Made by a program: the position numbers and the translations under genes
The notes under the pieces: generated by a model
Databases searched by the model: none
Seen by the model: the letters and a program-made list of their open reading frames with translations, nothing else
Told to the model about the DNA's origin: nothing
Source of the DNA: a virus
Virus record (IMG/VR): IMGVR_UViG_3300017991_000278
Location: 1 to 32,960 of that record
Length of the DNA: 32,960 nt
Reading direction: 5' to 3' (one strand)
Part shown: piece after piece, positions 3,286 through 15,321 of the stretch
Numbering within the stretch: the stretch's first letter is position 1
How the letters are laid out: each line of letters begins with the position of its first letter

Positions 3286-3573
3286 ATGAGCGACGAAGCG
3301 ATGAACGGCGAACCCACCCCGGAGCAGAGGATCGAGGAGCTAGAGGGTGCCCTGATCACCGCCGAAGAGCGGATCGAGGAACTCGAGGAAGAGCTCGGGG
3401 AGCGTGCGGCCAAGATCGAGGAACTGGAGAGGGTATCCGTCTGCTTCGAAAGGGAAGTCAGTGGCCCGAGCATCCTGATGGACGAAATCCCCGCCTTCGA
3501 CTCCGAAACCATCATCAAGCACATCAAGGACCGGAACTGGATGGCCCTCACCGAACTGATCAAAGGGAAATAG
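3286..3573 (+). CDS. Short coiled-coil protein of unknown function
   Basis: A 95-aa acidic protein. Residues 13-50 repeat the pattern xxRIEELExxL (RIEELEG, RIEELEEEL, KIEELERV), a clear heptad coiled coil, followed by a compact C-terminal segment ending in ALTELIKGK. The chosen ATG has AAGGAGCGGAGC just before it; a longer frame from 3220 would overlap terL and has no better signal. Its TAG stop (3571-3573) is immediately followed by the ATG of the acetyltransferase in the same frame, so read-through would fuse the two. It could be an oligomerising partner for either neighbour, but nothing in the sequence shows that. Confidence 0.7.
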   Translation: MSDEAMNGEPTPEQRIEELEGALITAEERIEELEEELGERAAKIEELERVSVCFEREVSGPSILMDEIPAFDSETIIKHIKDRNWMALTELIKGK

Positions 3574-4227
3574 ATGCGGAACGGCAACGCACAACCGAAG
3601 GGCACGCTACAGGCAATGAGGATCCCGAAGGGGATTCCTCTGCTTGAGAACGCCGTCCATCGCCCTCCCCCGCCCTTCCCCTATTCCAAGCTTCTCATGC
3701 CACGCCACGCCGAGACCATAGGGGAGCACTCCTATGGGAAGATCCACATCTTCGGGGAGCAGTATCTCGACCTCTTCTCCATCGGCAAGTTTACTAGCAT
3801 CGGCTCTTCCGTTTCGGCCATCGTCAAGGGGCACAACCATAACGCCGATTGGTTCACGACTTATCCCTTCGGATCCCCCCACCTGGAAGAGGAATGGCCC
3901 GGGGCGGATCAGGACTACCACGACGAGAAGCGGCGGGGCCTGACCATCGGCTCGGACGTATGGCTGGGCCAGGAGTCAGTCTTCATGCTCGGGGATCTGA
4001 CTATCGGGCACGGGGCGATTGTGGGAGCCCGCACCATCGTGACCAAGGATGTGCCGCCCTATGCAGTGGTAGCAGGCAATCCCGCCCGGATCATCAAGAA
4101 TCGCTTCCCCGATTGGGTGATTGAGCACCTTCTCTCCCTGGCCTGGTGGGACAAACCAGACGAATGGATCCAGGAGCACAAGGGCACGCTTTGCAGCGAC
4201 GATCTTGAGGCTCTGATGCGACTGTGA
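3574..4227 (+). CDS. Vat/CatB-type hexapeptide O-acetyltransferase
   Basis: A 217-aa protein of the xenobiotic-acetyltransferase branch of left-handed beta-helix enzymes. Visible hallmarks: imperfect hexapeptide repeats (SIGKFTSIGSSV; LTIGSDVWLGQ; LTIGHGAIVGARTIV), the active-site loop GHNHNADWFTTYPFG (residues 86-100) holding the likely catalytic His, the VVAGNPARII turn (165-174), and the C-terminal LAWWDKP (189-195). Such enzymes transfer acetyl from acetyl-CoA to hydroxyls of antibiotics or sugars and work as trimers. The ATG directly abuts the preceding stop, with AAAGGGA upstream; its TGA overlaps the portal GTG (GTGA). It is an accessory gene in a packaging operon. A sugar or O-antigen substrate is more likely than an antibiotic, but this is inference. 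Confidence 0.85.
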   Translation: MRNGNAQPKGTLQAMRIPKGIPLLENAVHRPPPPFPYSKLLMPRHAETIGEHSYGKIHIFGEQYLDLFSIGKFTSIGSSVSAIVKGHNHNADWFTTYPFGSPHLEEEWPGADQDYHDEKRRGLTIGSDVWLGQESVFMLGDLTIGHGAIVGARTIVTKDVPPYAVVAGNPARIIKNRFPDWVIEHLLSLAWWDKPDEWIQEHKGTLCSDDLEALMRL

Positions 4228-6395
4228 GAATCCTTGAACGAATTCGGCGGGCGATAAAGACCTTCACGGGGCCGTCCGTGGCGTCCTACATGACCAGCAT
4301 GGTCGAGGCATCGCGGGAGCGTGGGGACATCACCGATCCGTACACTCAGAACGTCTGGGTCAAGGCTTGCGTGGACGTGATCTCCAATTCCCTGATCGCC
4401 ATTCCCATGGTCTTCAGGAGGGACCGGAACGATTCGTCTGATCTAGTGGTGGGGTCGTCCCTCGAGGAATTGCTCGACAAGCCCACGGATCAATACTCCT
4501 CCAAGCAGGAGCTATTCCGTCTGAGCACCCGCTATCTGGACTCTCAGGGCGCGGTAGTTTGGCGCATGGTGGGCCGCGAGGAGGTAGATCAGGACCCCGA
4601 ATTCATCCAGGTCATGTCTGCCCACTCCGTCGAGGCGGTAAAGAATGACCTCGGCTGGATTCACAAGTGGAAGATTCAGACGAACAAGGGGACCATCGAG
4701 GTCCCCCTCGCTGAGATCGTCCTGATCAAATACGCCAACCTGGACGATCCCACAAAGGGCCTAGCCCCCATCGTTGCGGCTATGTCGGGCATCCTGATCG
4801 ACTGGAAGGTCAATCAGTTCAACATGGCCTTCTTCGACAACAACGCCGTGATCGGGGGAGTCCTCAAGGCTCCGGAAAACTACGAATTCTCCCAGGAGGA
4901 TCTTGACCGATTCCGGACATCCTTCTCCCGGCGTCATGGCGGATCGGAGAACGCCTTCAAGGTTGCCGCCTTTGAGAACGGCGTCTCCTTCGAACCGCTA
5001 GAGGTCAAGCATACGGACATGATGTTCGAGTCCGTCAAGAACCTCTCCAAGGAAGAAGTCCTTGCCGCCTTCCAGGTCCCCCCTGCTCTAGTCGGGCAGA
5101 CCGACGATTTCAACAAGGCGAACATGGCGGGGGCGCGGGAATCCTTCCACCAGAACACCGTCCTGCCCCGGGCCATCACATTCACCGAAGCCCTGTGGGC
5201 ACAGTGGCTCCAGTTCCGCAAGGAAAACGTGTGGCTTGAGTTCGACGACTCGAACCTCCCCTTCCTCCAGGCGGATTATTCCTCCCTGTCTATCACCGTG
5301 CAGCGACTTCTACGGGGGGGGTTCACCCGTCGCCAGTTGAATGAACGCTTCGAGCTCGGCTTCGACATGGACAACGATACAGGGGCTGACGTTCGCTGGA
5401 TGCCGGTGGGGCTGCTTCCAGAGGACTTGATTACCCGCAAGGCTGAAGCGGCGATTGCCAAAGATGAGGCCATGGCGGCACTGTCCGGTGCCCCCTCTCA
5501 AGGGGATGGAAAGAGCATCGGCATGGATGACGTGGTGAAGCTCCTGGAGTGCATCAAGGCGAACGGCTTCCCCTGGCACGGTGCCCAACCCATCGAGATC
5601 AACCCGCTCCAGATCGAGGATACGAAGAAGATCGGGGCCAAATTGAAGAAGGTGCCGAAGACGCTCTTCAACGAGAAGGAGATGGCAGAGGCGCTGATGA
5701 AGGCGCTGGACGACGCCATGCTGAAGGCTGCATCCGTTGGCCTGAACTCCCTCCTCGAGGACATAGGGGCCACCCCTGCGGACCTGACACCGGATGAGGG
5801 GGCATGGGCCGAACTGTTCAGGAAGAAGAAGCTCAAGATCAAGACCATCCCCGAACGCTGGCACAAGGCCCTACGCCACACAGTCGCCAATGGGATCGAA
5901 GAAGGGCAGACCACGGTGGAAATCACCGAGGCCCTTGTGAAGAAGTTCAAGGGCGGATCTCGGGCCTGGGCAAAGCGCATAGCCGACACCGAGGTGATGG
6001 ACACGCTGGATCAGTCCCGCCACGTCGCCATGAAGGCGGAGGGTGTTCCCATGCACGGTTGGCTGAACGCCGGGGACGATGCGGTCCGTGAATCCCACCG
6101 GATCAACCGCGAGGTCCGCAAGGTAGGGGAGCTATTCAGCAACGGCCTGGAATTCCCCCACGACGACAAGGGAAGCGGGTCACAGGTGATCAATTGCCGG
6201 TGCACCACCTTCCCCGTCATGGATGAAGAAGACGCCCAATTACTCGGTTCAGGCAAGAGCATCGTGGGCAAAGCAGAGCGCCGTCAGAAGGAACTGGACA
6301 AGGAAAAGGACCGGATTGCAGGGAAGGCCACGCCCAAGGTGGAGAAGTGGTTTGACCTCATTCTCAAGAAGACGCTGGCCACGCTCAGGAGGTAG
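4224..6395 (+). CDS. Portal protein fused to a MuF-like head morphogenesis domain
   Basis: A 723-aa protein starting at GTG 4224, overlapping the previous stop by four bases. Residues 1-430 are portal-like: the N-terminal WVKACVDVISNSLIAIPMVF helix, segments such as LIKYANLDDPTKGLAPI, and FQVPPALVGQTDDFNKANM before the crown helices, all typical of HK97-type portals. Residues about 540-665 form a MuF/SPP1 gp7-like minor head domain, ending in the diagnostic VINCRCTTFPV with the preceding conserved histidines (SHRINRE). The portal is the dodecameric DNA gate at one capsid vertex; MuF domains are minor head components. Portal-MuF fusions are known. The linker (residues 440-540) is charged and helical. 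Confidence 0.92.
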   Translation: MRILERIRRAIKTFTGPSVASYMTSMVEASRERGDITDPYTQNVWVKACVDVISNSLIAIPMVFRRDRNDSSDLVVGSSLEELLDKPTDQYSSKQELFRLSTRYLDSQGAVVWRMVGREEVDQDPEFIQVMSAHSVEAVKNDLGWIHKWKIQTNKGTIEVPLAEIVLIKYANLDDPTKGLAPIVAAMSGILIDWKVNQFNMAFFDNNAVIGGVLKAPENYEFSQEDLDRFRTSFSRRHGGSENAFKVAAFENGVSFEPLEVKHTDMMFESVKNLSKEEVLAAFQVPPALVGQTDDFNKANMAGARESFHQNTVLPRAITFTEALWAQWLQFRKENVWLEFDDSNLPFLQADYSSLSITVQRLLRGGFTRRQLNERFELGFDMDNDTGADVRWMPVGLLPEDLITRKAEAAIAKDEAMAALSGAPSQGDGKSIGMDDVVKLLECIKANGFPWHGAQPIEINPLQIEDTKKIGAKLKKVPKTLFNEKEMAEALMKALDDAMLKAASVGLNSLLEDIGATPADLTPDEGAWAELFRKKKLKIKTIPERWHKALRHTVANGIEEGQTTVEITEALVKKFKGGSRAWAKRIADTEVMDTLDQSRHVAMKAEGVPMHGWLNAGDDAVRESHRINREVRKVGELFSNGLEFPHDDKGSGSQVINCRCTTFPVMDEEDAQLLGSGKSIVGKAERRQKELDKEKDRIAGKATPKVEKWFDLILKKTLATLRR

Positions 6396-6397
6396 CT

Positions 6398-7285
6398 ATG
6401 GAGTTCACGAAGGGCATGATCGCCAAACTGACAGACGGCGCGACCATCAAATATGACGGAGAGAAGTGGAATCCCGTCAAAGAGGAGCACGACGAGCAGG
6501 ACATCCTTGTTTTCTTGGGCGGGGCGTGCAAGGCCATGGGTGACGGCAAGATCGGGGGGCACTTGTGTCTCTACTCCGAACCCAACGAGCCGGATCTGTA
6601 CGGCGACTTTTTCTCCTAGAAGACTGACTTCGATCTCGACGACGAGTCCAAGGTCCGGGTGCTCTACGAGCACGGCATGGACCCGGTCCTCGACAATACG
6701 AAGCTCGGGGTCAAAGACGGCAAGACCGTCTCCAAGGCGTCCGTCAAGAAGGACAAGGTGGGCGTCTGGATCGAGCACCAGCTTGATATGCGGGACAAGT
6801 ATCAGGCGGCGATCTATGAGATGGTCGAGGCCGGTGCGCTTGGATGGTCCTCCGGTGTGCCCGCTCATCTGACCCGGAGATCTGCCAAGGGGACGAATCA
6901 GCACGTTGACGCATGGCCGATTTCCGAGGCCAGTCTCACCGTCCAGCCTGCCGAACCCCGTACCCTGGCCGTGGCCCTGAAGTCCCTGCCCAAGATCGAG
7001 GATTCCCCGCTGAAGAAGCTCGCGGATAGGAAGGCGGAATCCTTCGAGGAAATCATGGCCGAACTGCAAGAGATCAAAGAGGGGCAGCAGCAGCTTGCCG
7101 CCCGTCTCGAACTCTTCACCGTAGAGCACCCCGAACCCGAAACCCCCGGCGACCAGCCGGATCAGTCCGATTCTGAGGACGACCTTCTCACCGCTGCGTT
7201 GTACGACGAAAGCGCGATCCCTGAGCACCAGGAGGAAGAGGAGGAGGAGTCTGAGCCCGCAGAGGAAGACATCTTTGATGTGTAA
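6398..7285 (+). CDS. Prohead serine protease interrupted by an in-frame TAG codon
   Basis: The frame from ATG 6398 meets TAG at 6617-6619 (codon 74) and then continues in the same frame, without any indel, to TAA at 7285 (295 codons counting the TAG). Homology runs straight across: before it EPNEPDLYGDFFS, after it KTDFDLDDESKVRVLYEHGMDP, matching the (Y/F)FT-x-x-TDF...HG pattern of phage head proteases just upstream of capsid genes. The likely catalytic His92 (LYEHGMDP) and Ser151/152 (LGWSSG) both lie after the TAG, so the 73-aa product cannot be active. A GTG at 6659 could restart but lacks a clear ribosome binding site. The acidic tail (residues 200-295) may act as scaffold. Options: read-through or suppressor tRNA, a nonsense variant, or a base error. 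Confidence 0.8.
6617..6619 (+). other. In-frame amber codon inside the protease gene
   Basis: TAG follows TCC and precedes AAG ACT GAC. The aligned position in related proteases, as I recall the family, carries a polar residue such as Lys, Glu or Gln, each one base from TAG (AAG, GAG, CAG). TAG ends other ORFs in the window (332, 3573, 6395, 9198, 9914, 17519, 18324, 30248), so a genome-wide reassignment is not supported. Confidence 0.85.
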
Positions 7286-7316: not shown

Positions 7317-8636
7317 ATGTCCGATGACAAAAAAAAGAAAAATGAGGCCACGATCAAAGGCTGGATCGACGAAAAGATCGACGACGCCATGAAGTCCGTC
7401 ACGGACAAGATCGACGTGCCTGACATCGAAACCGCAAAGAAAGAGATCCAGGAGAAGTGGGAAGAAGACCTGAAAGCCTACGACAAGCGCATCAAGAAGA
7501 TGGAAGACGATATCAAGCGCGGTCCGGGCAGTGGCACGCATGTGGACGGCTACGACAAGGAAGAGGCGAAGAAGTTCCGCTATTCCCGCGCAGCCTACGC
7601 CATGCTGATGGCCAAGCGGAACGGCCCCAAAGCGTGGGACCGCTTCGCTCCCTACGAGAAGGAAGTCCTCTTCCAGACGGCCAAGAAGGCGGGCGTCACC
7701 GAGGGAGACGATCCCAACAACGTCAAGGTGATGGAGGAATCCTACGGTCCTGCCGGTGGATATCTCATCCCCGACGTGCTGGCAGACGGCTATATCGAGG
7801 AACTGATCGATCAGGCCATGCTCATCCAGTCGGGTGCCCAGGTGCTGAACGGCCTGAAGGGTGCCCCCTTCCGGCTGAACAAGAAGACCGCCGGGATGAC
7901 CGCCTACATGGTGGGAGCAGGTTCGGAGCCCACGAGTTCCGACCTGACCCTCGGCCAGATTTCCATGCAGCCCCGCACCATGGGGATGCTTGGCAAATTC
8001 TCGAAGAACGTCGAGGACATGGGGAACGACTCCGTGGAAGCCATGCTTCGCCAGGACATGGCGGAAACGGGCGGGCGCAAGGTGGATCAGCAGTGCCTCT
8101 TCGGCACGGGCGGATCGGATGAAGTGCTCGGTCTGACCAACCTGGGCGGCGACATCAACACCATCGCCACGTCCAGCGGGGCCATCACCATGGCCTATCT
8201 GCATGATTTCATCTACGACATCTGGCAGGACGCGGCCCTGAAGGACCCGGGAAGCTGGAGATGGTGGATCAACCCCCGGACCCTGTCCGTGATCCATCAA
8301 TTCCAGAACGCCGTGACCGGCGACTACTTCTTCCGCCCGGAAGTGTGGAACCCGGTCAAGGACGGCATTCTCGGCTACCCGGTCAACGTGACCAACCAGA
8401 TCCCGCGCAACCTCGGATCCTCGAGCCTGAACGCCGCGATCCTCTTCGGCAACTGGAAAGAGATGATCATCGGCTTCTGGAGAAACATGGAAATCATGCT
8501 TCTCGATCAGGCTTCCGATTCCAGCGGGAACAACGCTGCCCTGCTCAATCAGGAATGGCTCCTCATGTTCACGCGCTTCGATATGTGCGTGCGCCACGAG
8601 CAGTCCTTCTCCATCTGCACCGACACCACAAGCTGA
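7317..8636 (+). CDS. Major capsid protein, HK97 fold
   Basis: A 439-aa protein directly after the protease. Residues 1-75 are charged and helical (a delta-domain-like scaffold with Lys/Asp/Glu heptads), the part usually removed by the prohead protease. From about residue 78 it has the HK97-family pattern: a conserved N-arm, ESYGPAGGYLIPDVLADGYIEEL (residues about 141-163), a P-domain helix with the QQCLFGTG motif, DIWQDAALKDPGSWRWWINPRT, and a C-terminal LNQEWLLMFTRFDMCVRHEQSFS that closes the A-domain. Many copies form the icosahedral shell. AAAGGAAA lies upstream of the ATG. The start is well defined by the first Met after a noncoding gap. Confidence 0.95.
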   Translation: MSDDKKKKNEATIKGWIDEKIDDAMKSVTDKIDVPDIETAKKEIQEKWEEDLKAYDKRIKKMEDDIKRGPGSGTHVDGYDKEEAKKFRYSRAAYAMLMAKRNGPKAWDRFAPYEKEVLFQTAKKAGVTEGDDPNNVKVMEESYGPAGGYLIPDVLADGYIEELIDQAMLIQSGAQVLNGLKGAPFRLNKKTAGMTAYMVGAGSEPTSSDLTLGQISMQPRTMGMLGKFSKNVEDMGNDSVEAMLRQDMAETGGRKVDQQCLFGTGGSDEVLGLTNLGGDINTIATSSGAITMAYLHDFIYDIWQDAALKDPGSWRWWINPRTLSVIHQFQNAVTGDYFFRPEVWNPVKDGILGYPVNVTNQIPRNLGSSSLNAAILFGNWKEMIIGFWRNMEIMLLDQASDSSGNNAALLNQEWLLMFTRFDMCVRHEQSFSICTDTTS

Positions 8637-12246: not shown

Positions 12247-15200
12247 ATGGCGACCATTGACCTGATCAAGAACAACAGCGTCAAGGCTTACCGCCTTGGT
12301 GATGACGAATACAGCATCTGGGGCACGGGCAAGGATGCGGGCCAGGGTTGGAATACGGACCAGACCCAGGACGCCCTTACAACCTTTGTCTCCGGGTCCA
12401 ATACCTGGATCTTCGGTACGAAGGCGAACGTCTATGATCCGGGCGGTCTTGATCTCGGCCTTGCCGCGTCCACCGATCCCCTGTTTGTGATCACGTCTTC
12501 GACGGGGTGGGGAACTGCCACGAATCAGTACCTTGCCTTCCACTACAACGCGGCGGGGTCTTACGGCTCCATCGATGTGGGGACGGGGACGATCCGGATG
12601 CAGGACGAGGTTGTGATGACCTCGCACGTCTACTTCGGGGATTCAGATTGCATCTACATGGGGGATGGGAATGACTCCTATTGGAACTTCGACGGGACTG
12701 ATCTGGTCTGGGTTTTCGCCTCCCTCGGTGCGGCAGATGCGGACGGGGGAAGCTGGAAGCTCACGGCACAGAGCGCGGGGACCACGAACGATCACGACGG
12801 TGGATCTATCATCATGGAGCCTGGGGCGCTGAATGGCGCGGGGTCCGATGGGAAGTTCATCATCCGCCAGCCTGGGACATCTGGGGCAGATGATATTCAG
12901 ATTTGGACAGACGGGACTACTGCGTCTATCAACGTGCATGGCGGCGTTGCAATGGCGTTGCAAACCGGAGACTCCACCCGCCTCAATATAAATTCGTCGG
13001 TAACGGCGATTTATCCGGCAACGGATGCCACATGGGATTGTGGATACACGGGCTTGCATTGGAAGGCGGTACTGGTAGGAGAAGACACCACAACCGGAAG
13101 CATTAGTACGTCTGGATTAATGTTCGGCAGGGCGAACGAAGCCCGCCTCCGCTACAACAAAGACGCGACGGGCTATCCCGCATCGTCCCTGATTCTCGGG
13201 CTCGAAGCGTCCGGCACAGCGGCGAAGGATTCGCTTGCCTTCTCCTCTGCTACGATTAGCGGTTTTGCCAACGTAACAAACGACACCGCAGGCGAAGCTA
13301 TCTATCAGGCTACTCAGACGGGCGGCACTTCAACTTCCGGCAACGGTCTCGCTGGAGGATCGCTATTCTTTGAAATCGGTGCCGGGTCTGATGCCTTCGG
13401 TGGTGGGGGCGGAGATGGCGGGGCCGGTGGGGACTTCGTTGTCATTCCCGGAGCGGGCGGGGCGCTTGACGGCGGTGGTTCGGCTGGGGCCGATGGAACG
13501 TTCATTGTTAGGCAACCTGGCGGGACCCCCGGCACGGATGACCTCTATATGAGGCACACCGGATCGGATTCTTTGATCGATACGGCCTCTGGATCTCTCC
13601 GATTCAATTCCGTAGGCGGGGGGGCCGTCTACTCTGGCGGCACATTCATGCCGATCGGCGCGAAGGATATAGGATCGTCCACATACTACTGGCGCATGGG
13701 TTACTTCGGCACCGCAGATATTCAAACCACCTCCACCGATGGCCTTCTGTTGACTAACCCCGAAGCGGCGACGGCTGGGGTGACGGTGCAGATGGGGCCG
13801 AGGTTGAGGTTGAGGGGGAGTGCGTGGAAATCGAATGCAACCGCCGCAAGCCACACGTCCGACTGGATTATGGAGGGTTTGCCAGCGACGGGTGCGGCTG
13901 CGATTACAAGCAATTTGCAATTCAAGCACTCGAACAACGGCGGAGCATATTCCGCATCACTCTTAACCATCGCAAGTAGTGGGATTGTTTCCGTCGCCAC
14001 GAGCGTCAACACGCCGATCCTATACAACTACGCATCGACGCTTGCGGTCCAGAACCAAAACTTCACCTCCGCCGACTCCGCCATCGAGATGGCCACGGGG
14101 ACCGCATCGAACACCACCGGCGAATTCAACGCCGTCGAAATCAAGCCCACCATCAACCAGGCATCCGGCGACGGCTCGTGGAACGCGCTCAAGCTGAACG
14201 TGACGACCACGGCGGAAGGATCTGGGGGCGGCCTATTCATCCAAGCGAAAAATGACACAGTTCAAAAGTTTTATGTGTCAAGCGGTGGAGAGTTGTATGC
14301 CGCAAGCAACATTAATGTCCCTCGCATACGGTCTTCTAGCGGAACATTTACGTTTCAGGACACGTCATTTTCTATCGCAGATTCTGCTATCGAGGCGGTT
14401 GGCGGAACTCATACCCAGGACGGCACGCAGTTCGTCGGGATGCACATTAAGCCGACGTACAACCAGAGCAATGCCGCCGCCGCCTCTGACCTCGTAGTCT
14501 CCCGCACCGAGACGAGCGTGGGGAGCGGCGATCAATTCCTCATGGACCTCGGCACCACCACGGACGGCACCTATGCCAATCACACGTCAATGTTCAGAGT
14601 CACAAATACGGGAGTTGTGTACAGCAGAAGCATTTCGATGGCAGACGGCTACAACCTCGACGCCGGGACGACCACCGACGACTACTTCCTGATCCGGGCT
14701 TTCGACACGGGAAACGCCATGACGAAGGTTGGAATCGTGGCGGGCGGTGCTGATCCATACGTTGCCTTCGGCGGATCAAATGAATTTGTTTTTTATGAGA
14801 GCGGATTATTCGTAGCGAACGGCGTGACTCGTATTCTTGACACGCAGAGCCTCGACGCAGGCTACACCACCGACGACTACTTCATCATCCGCGCCTTCGA
14901 TACCGGAAATGCCATGGTTCAGGTTGGCGCGGTGCGCGGTGGGGCCGATCCCTACATGTCTCTCGGCGGGAATGATGAACTCCGAGTCTATAACACCGGA
15001 TGGGTTTCCTGCGACTGCACGCTATCCATAAGAGACGGGCGGAATATCGACGCGGGGACAACGACCGACGACTACTTCCTCATTCGCGCCTTCGATACCG
15101 GGAATGCCATGGTGGAAGTCGGGCGGGTGGCAGGGGCGGCTGACCCCTACTTCGGGCTCGGGGTGAACGGAAATGTCCTCAAGGCAACGAACGGGGGAAA

Positions 15201-15321
15201 TCTCGGCTTCTTCGGCGCAACCCCAACATCCCAGCTTCTCAAAGCCAATTACAACAACTGGGCCGCATTCACGGACGTGGTGGACGCGCTCGTGGCAATC
15301 GGCCTCTTTGATCAGGCATAA
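12247..15321 (+). CDS. Large repeat-containing fibre-like structural protein
   Basis: A 1024-aa beta-rich, Gly/Ser/Thr/Asp-rich protein lacking signal peptide, membrane segments and enzyme motifs. It contains internal repeats: DGKFIIRQPG (about residue 202) recurs as DGTFIVRQPG (about 416); two copies of a ~102-aa unit around ADSAIE (about 608 and 710); and three 65-aa tandem units around DDYFLIRAFDTGNAM (about 810, 875, 940). The C-terminus GFFGATPTSQLL...ALVAIGLFDQA is of the type seen at the ends of phage fibre and head-fibre proteins. It sits among connector genes rather than after the tail tip, suggesting a head- or neck-attached fibre. Ribosome site GGAGAGAACGAA precedes the ATG. Probably a trimeric adhesin; function inferred. 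Confidence 0.75.
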   Translation: MATIDLIKNNSVKAYRLGDDEYSIWGTGKDAGQGWNTDQTQDALTTFVSGSNTWIFGTKANVYDPGGLDLGLAASTDPLFVITSSTGWGTATNQYLAFHYNAAGSYGSIDVGTGTIRMQDEVVMTSHVYFGDSDCIYMGDGNDSYWNFDGTDLVWVFASLGAADADGGSWKLTAQSAGTTNDHDGGSIIMEPGALNGAGSDGKFIIRQPGTSGADDIQIWTDGTTASINVHGGVAMALQTGDSTRLNINSSVTAIYPATDATWDCGYTGLHWKAVLVGEDTTTGSISTSGLMFGRANEARLRYNKDATGYPASSLILGLEASGTAAKDSLAFSSATISGFANVTNDTAGEAIYQATQTGGTSTSGNGLAGGSLFFEIGAGSDAFGGGGGDGGAGGDFVVIPGAGGALDGGGSAGADGTFIVRQPGGTPGTDDLYMRHTGSDSLIDTASGSLRFNSVGGGAVYSGGTFMPIGAKDIGSSTYYWRMGYFGTADIQTTSTDGLLLTNPEAATAGVTVQMGPRLRLRGSAWKSNATAASHTSDWIMEGLPATGAAAITSNLQFKHSNNGGAYSASLLTIASSGIVSVATSVNTPILYNYASTLAVQNQNFTSADSAIEMATGTASNTTGEFNAVEIKPTINQASGDGSWNALKLNVTTTAEGSGGGLFIQAKNDTVQKFYVSSGGELYAASNINVPRIRSSSGTFTFQDTSFSIADSAIEAVGGTHTQDGTQFVGMHIKPTYNQSNAAAASDLVVSRTETSVGSGDQFLMDLGTTTDGTYANHTSMFRVTNTGVVYSRSISMADGYNLDAGTTTDDYFLIRAFDTGNAMTKVGIVAGGADPYVAFGGSNEFVFYESGLFVANGVTRILDTQSLDAGYTTDDYFIIRAFDTGNAMVQVGAVRGGADPYMSLGGNDELRVYNTGWVSCDCTLSIRDGRNIDAGTTTDDYFLIRAFDTGNAMVEVGRVAGAADPYFGLGVNGNVLKATNGGNLGFFGATPTSQLLKANYNNWAAFTDVVDALVAIGLFDQA
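14071..14575 (+). repeat. Two diverged ~306-nt repeat units in the fibre gene
   Basis: Segments beginning GCCGACTCCGCCATCGAG (14071) and GCAGATTCTGCTATCGAG (14377) encode ADSAIE and are 306 nt (102 codons) apart. Both continue through an 'IKPT-NQ' block (EIKPTINQ, HIKPTYNQ). The DNA has diverged but the protein pattern is kept. Confidence 0.65.
14635..15220 (+). repeat. Three tandem 195-nt (65-aa) repeats in the fibre gene
   Basis: The core GACGACTAC occurs at 14677, 14872 and 15067, exactly 195 nt apart each time. Each unit encodes DAG-TTDDYF-IRAFDTGNAM followed by VG-V-G-ADPY. The units are clearly recent relative to the rest of the gene, with long identical stretches in the DNA between units two and three. 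Confidence 0.85.

Follow-up and report, generated by a model that had tools for sequence, protein, structure and literature searches.

The stretch analysed here (the window) is the whole 32,960-base IMG/VR virus record IMGVR_UViG_3300017991_000278. It carries a phage prohead protease gene of the Peptidase_S78 (HK97 gp4-like) type that is interrupted by a TAG in frame at codon 74. We regard this TAG as an isolated nonsense codon, arising either from a private recent mutation or from an error in the assembled consensus, in an otherwise intact and conserved gene (probability about 0.83). In this reading it replaced a sense codon, which, judging from the aligned family, was most likely for lysine; most likely the TAG is neither a programmed nor any other functional signal.

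An in-frame TAG in the prohead protease gene

The interrupted gene and its parts are as follows.

6398..7285, + strand: gene for a Peptidase_S78 / HK97 gp4-like prohead protease, interrupted in frame by TAG (translation, Pfam, tblastn and profile match)
6617..6619, + strand: the interrupting TAG (codon 74), which the AlphaFold2 model places in a loop behind a conserved strand; all 98 related loci have a sense codon here
6398..6619, + strand: upstream fragment of 73 amino acids, with the N-terminal extension and the first barrel strands but no catalytic residue (translation, AlphaFold2)
6620..7285, + strand: downstream fragment, containing both presumed catalytic residues, His92 and Ser151 (open reading frame 6659-7285; both invariant)

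A single unshifted frame runs from ATG at 6398 through TAG at 6617-6619 to TAA at 7283-7285, and the codon-usage coding signal was continuous in frame +2 across the TAG. Searching the record with the family profile gave one match (6479-7006, E = 1.9e-70) containing exactly 1 TAG, and no second copy of the protease. By composition alone, 221 more open codons after the TAG have a p of about 7e-4; a chance open frame was excluded by the profile match and by the homology of the read-through protease to IMG/VR relatives (tblastn E values down to 4e-54). The original prediction, that TAG splits the protease in frame within a conserved motif and ahead of both presumed catalytic residues, was confirmed: Asp66, Leu67, Phe72 and Thr76 around the site are conserved, and His92 and Ser151 lie downstream.

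The read-through domain (6485-7024) scored 23.0 bits against Pfam Peptidase_S78, above the gathering score of 21. The complete read-through protein (295 amino acids) scored 20.3 bits, just under that threshold, and the TIGR01543 score was 19.7 bits versus a cut-off of 59. By its sequence, the window protease belongs to a divergent subfamily of the S78/TIGR01543 type. Its gene lies between those for portal and HK97-type capsid proteins, as for S78 proteases. With the caudoviral prohead proteases (Peptidase_S78 / TIGR01543, HK97 gp4 type) it shares this portal-protease-capsid order, the conserved His and Ser and a herpesvirus-protease-like predicted fold (weak matches), but it differs from them in sequence divergence and in the TAG at codon 74. 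An uninterrupted frame is expected of the Peptidase_S78 family, but that of the window has 1 TAG inside; the gene is a disrupted copy of this family.

A first AlphaFold2 model based on 15 sequences was poor, with a predicted local distance difference test score (pLDDT) of 49. The second, based on 67 sequences, was used, and gave the domain a mean pLDDT of 82.3 and a predicted template modelling score of 0.74. The herpesvirus-protease fold is the one expected of prohead proteases, and the six best PDB matches of the predicted fold were all herpesvirus proteases, although weak (E 0.05-0.4). Predicted strands at residues 45-48, 51-59 and 70-72 precede the TAG, and the remaining barrel follows it. 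His92 and Ser151, 100% conserved in the family alignment and present in the window, are presumed to be catalytic. Because the model places the strands before the TAG and these two residues in one domain, neither fragment should be active by itself. The upstream fragment alone had no Pfam match, and the downstream part from an in-frame GTG at 6659 scored 15.1 bits against S78, below the cut-off.

Codon 74 in relatives and the state of the gene

The first IMG/VR search for relatives yielded 21 loci, and the second 188 matches, of which 80 were kept. For the comparison at codon 74, we used 98 related IMG/VR loci; 76 non-redundant sequences, including two Salinibacter phage records, were counted. 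The equivalent codon was a sense codon in every locus and a stop in none (0 of 98), these relatives being at most about 54% identical to the window protease (50-54% for the best of them). Lysine was the commonest residue, at 51 of the 76, followed by A (15), P (4) and R (3), with E, S and D once each. One pattern of the second search takes in codon 74 and is thereby biased towards K or A; we therefore repeated the count with the 41 relatives found through motifs elsewhere, which gave K 23, A 9, P 3, R 3, and S, D and E once each, with no stop. Apparent stops in two loci (L034 and L102) lay upstream of the ATGs of those genes and so were not internal. AAG, the commonest codon of the family at this site, is one base away from TAG and is also preferred for lysine in the window phage (410 AAG versus 110 AAA), so a single substitution suffices.

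A protein of a Salinibacter ruber phage (WVM00916.1, from OR896296.1) is 40% identical across the TAG and has Ala at codon 74, but its frame is uninterrupted and forms part of a 935-amino-acid protein. In the Salinibacter phages (locus L001, 4084-6888), this larger protein is annotated only as hypothetical. At E 0.001, 37 of 67 aligned members of the subfamily matched Pfam S78. Scans of IMG/VR with single proteins (portal, protease, capsid and terminase queries) gave no relatives, no further copy turned up in an exact scan of the DNA spanning codon 74, although near-identical records may be missing from the collection, and a plasmid search returned nothing.

The part of the gene after the TAG does not appear to have degenerated. 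In a leave-one-out family score, the window had 1.83 bits per column upstream of the TAG and 1.79 downstream, the averages for the relatives being 2.49 and 2.30; the family residue was kept in 28 of the 30 columns with at least 90% conservation, both sides of the TAG counted. This implies that the TAG arose recently, is an artefact, or is bypassed by read-through. The same nonsense screen, applied to the chosen gene frames of about 106 loci, found one other convincing isolated stop, a TAA at position 277 of locus L074 that splits a ParB/DNA-methyltransferase-like frame. A stop in L072 was discarded, more stops following it. The screen is a rough guide with wrong-frame noise; the case in L074 nevertheless indicates that isolated stops are not exceptional in metagenomic contigs.

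Alternative explanations of the TAG

The 25 genes counted in the window comprise 9428 codons, and the TAG at codon 74 is their only internal stop. They end in TGA (10), TAA (9) or TAG (6). The eight other listed open reading frames that the original prediction counted as ending in TAG were all found (at 332, 3573, 6395, 9198, 9914, 17519, 18324 and 30248). The codon count thus strongly disfavours reassignment of TAG to an amino acid in the phage, or its use for pyrrolysine in the host. The in-frame TAG in a conserved gene would fit such a code, as would the in-frame sequence continuing past some of the stops (3573, 9914 and 30248). However, phages that recode TAG have many in-frame TAGs across their late genes, and the genes after 3573 and 9914 start at once with their own ATGs. 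With TAG ending six genes and eight other open reading frames, we exclude simple reassignment, in agreement with the original prediction, and consider it very improbable in any form. At 3573 and 9914, adjacent genes in the same frame are separated only by TAG-ATG and TAG-CAC-ATG. These pairs look like normal operon neighbours and would be fused if TAG were read through. In code-15 phages, such as crAss-like phages, genes are widely fragmented under code 11 and suppressor tRNAs are predicted (PMC9523058). The window has in common with them an in-frame TAG in a phage gene, but only one gene is affected and no tRNA was found in the record, itself probably a fragment.

The main rival to an isolated nonsense codon is that the TAG is real and suppressed by a tRNA with a CUA anticodon, supplied by the host or by a part of the phage genome outside the record, a little protease being enough. 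We judge this unlikely. With K, A, P, R, S, D and E all accepted at codon 74 in the family, almost any amino acid inserted there could serve; the lack of decay after the TAG fits as well, and the base that follows the TAG is an A, which generally helps amber suppression. The record, being classed as linear, is probably a fragment of a phage genome, and about one-third of a genome of 45-50 kb (size judged by relatives) may be absent from it. Efficient suppression, however, would extend the eight other open reading frames for which TAG is the normal stop, and no other gene has an internal TAG. The search for a CUA tRNA suggested by the original prediction covered the window and the loci of the relatives. 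No tRNA was found in the window, and ARAGORN found no suppressor tRNA in the relatives, where the readable anticodons were Arg-TCT, Met-CAT and Asp-ATC. One further call, in L074 (7676-7752), was unassignable, an unusual tRNA whose anticodon has only two bases. In all the relatives found (at most about 54% identical), both TAG and suppressor tRNA were absent, which points to a private mutation or a base error. Two scans of 84,980 genomes with patterns of limited sensitivity found no relative of the protease.

Programmed read-through, or restart of translation, could limit the dose of a protease that is needed in only a few copies per head, the N-terminal fragment being a product of its own. 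The in-frame GTG at 6659 is preceded by a weak AAGG, and restart there could in principle occur, although the product would lose the first strands and falls below the S78 cut-off. The stop is kept in none of the 98 relatives, and it lies inside one domain of the AlphaFold2 model. Folding the RNA 3' of the TAG gave nothing better than shuffled sequences (z -1.2 and -0.5; folding only), so no structured element that might stimulate read-through was seen. We consider this explanation improbable. Suppression, programmed read-through, a polymorphic nonsense site and a base error had originally been listed with none chosen; a private mutation or base error is now favoured, and programmed read-through is without positive support because of the lack of conservation, the lack of a 3' RNA structure and the variability of the site in the family.

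That an essential gene carries a nonsense codon might also point to a decaying prophage with a dead protease. We give this the least credence of all: no other late gene is interrupted, the coding signal runs on unbroken, and the pattern scans of the genome collection, within their limited sensitivity, yielded no relative of the protease.

We infer both the origin of the TAG and the loss of function. A private, recent mutation or a consensus error would have replaced the sense codon. If the base is real, UAG would end translation after 73 residues in a normal host, and neither presumed catalytic residue would be in the product. The capsid protein (see below) would then keep its delta-like region uncleaved, and heads would fail to mature. 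In Salmonella phage SPN3US, the prohead protease gene is essential: the amber mutants 245(am59) and 245(am66) form plaques efficiently on hosts with a suppressor, non-permissive hosts yield them only at the frequency of reversion, and without a suppressor, immature proheads accumulate (PMC7411985). The SPN3US mutants share with the window an amber codon inside the prohead protease gene, but they are laboratory mutants of a distant phage, whereas the amber of the window belongs to an environmental consensus sequence. The same outcome should hold here, since the truncated product would lack both presumed catalytic residues. A genome with the TAG would be maintained only as a rare variant in the population, through complementation in mixed infections, or in a suppressing host.

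Several points weigh against an isolated nonsense codon. The consensus normally shows the base found in most reads, and a mutation that is lethal would not be expected to predominate among replicating phages; the protease gene is otherwise intact. The TAG is that of the assembled consensus. Also, it is private with respect to relatives whose identity is only about 50%, and other members of the same phage species may share it. A wild population could have a fixed amber in its essential protease gene and depend on a suppressing host or on a suppressor tRNA of its own, with the translation state of the host deciding head maturation; this is somewhat less likely again than suppression as such.

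Neighbouring genes and significance

The protease gene is flanked by two head genes.

4224..6395, + strand: portal protein to which an SPP1-gp7/Mu-F-like minor head domain is fused (TIGR01641; Pfam PF04233 and, at E = 6.8e-48, PF04860)
7317..8636, + strand: HK97-type major capsid protein (Pfam PF05065, residues 147-433; TIGR01554)

The TAG stop of the portal gene lies two bases ahead of the protease ATG. The capsid protein is the presumed substrate of the protease; the charged region of about 145 residues that precedes its capsid domain appears to be delta domain-like.

Between the terminase and portal genes, an unusual location, there is a gene for a hexapeptide acetyltransferase (3574-4227, + strand) that resembles CatB/Vat xenobiotic acetyltransferases (NF000490, 131 bits, below the cut-off of 350). 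A protein of 1024 amino acids (12247-15318, + strand) had no Pfam or PHROG match. Its last 39 residues are 74% identical to a stretch in two other viral contigs, the N-terminal part matching more weakly, and in both contigs the matching stretch is much shorter than the protein. This suggests that the protein carries a C-terminal module common to other viral contigs. The records found through it share only parts of that protein and had no match to the protease.

As a by-product, the analysis identified a subfamily of proteases for which IMG/VR contains at least 188 matches. A TAG that is a private mutation or an error would be of little consequence except for annotation, in that gene callers will give two fragments and miss the protease. 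If it is fixed and suppressed, it would represent a naturally occurring example of an essential phage gene dependent on suppression of a stop codon.
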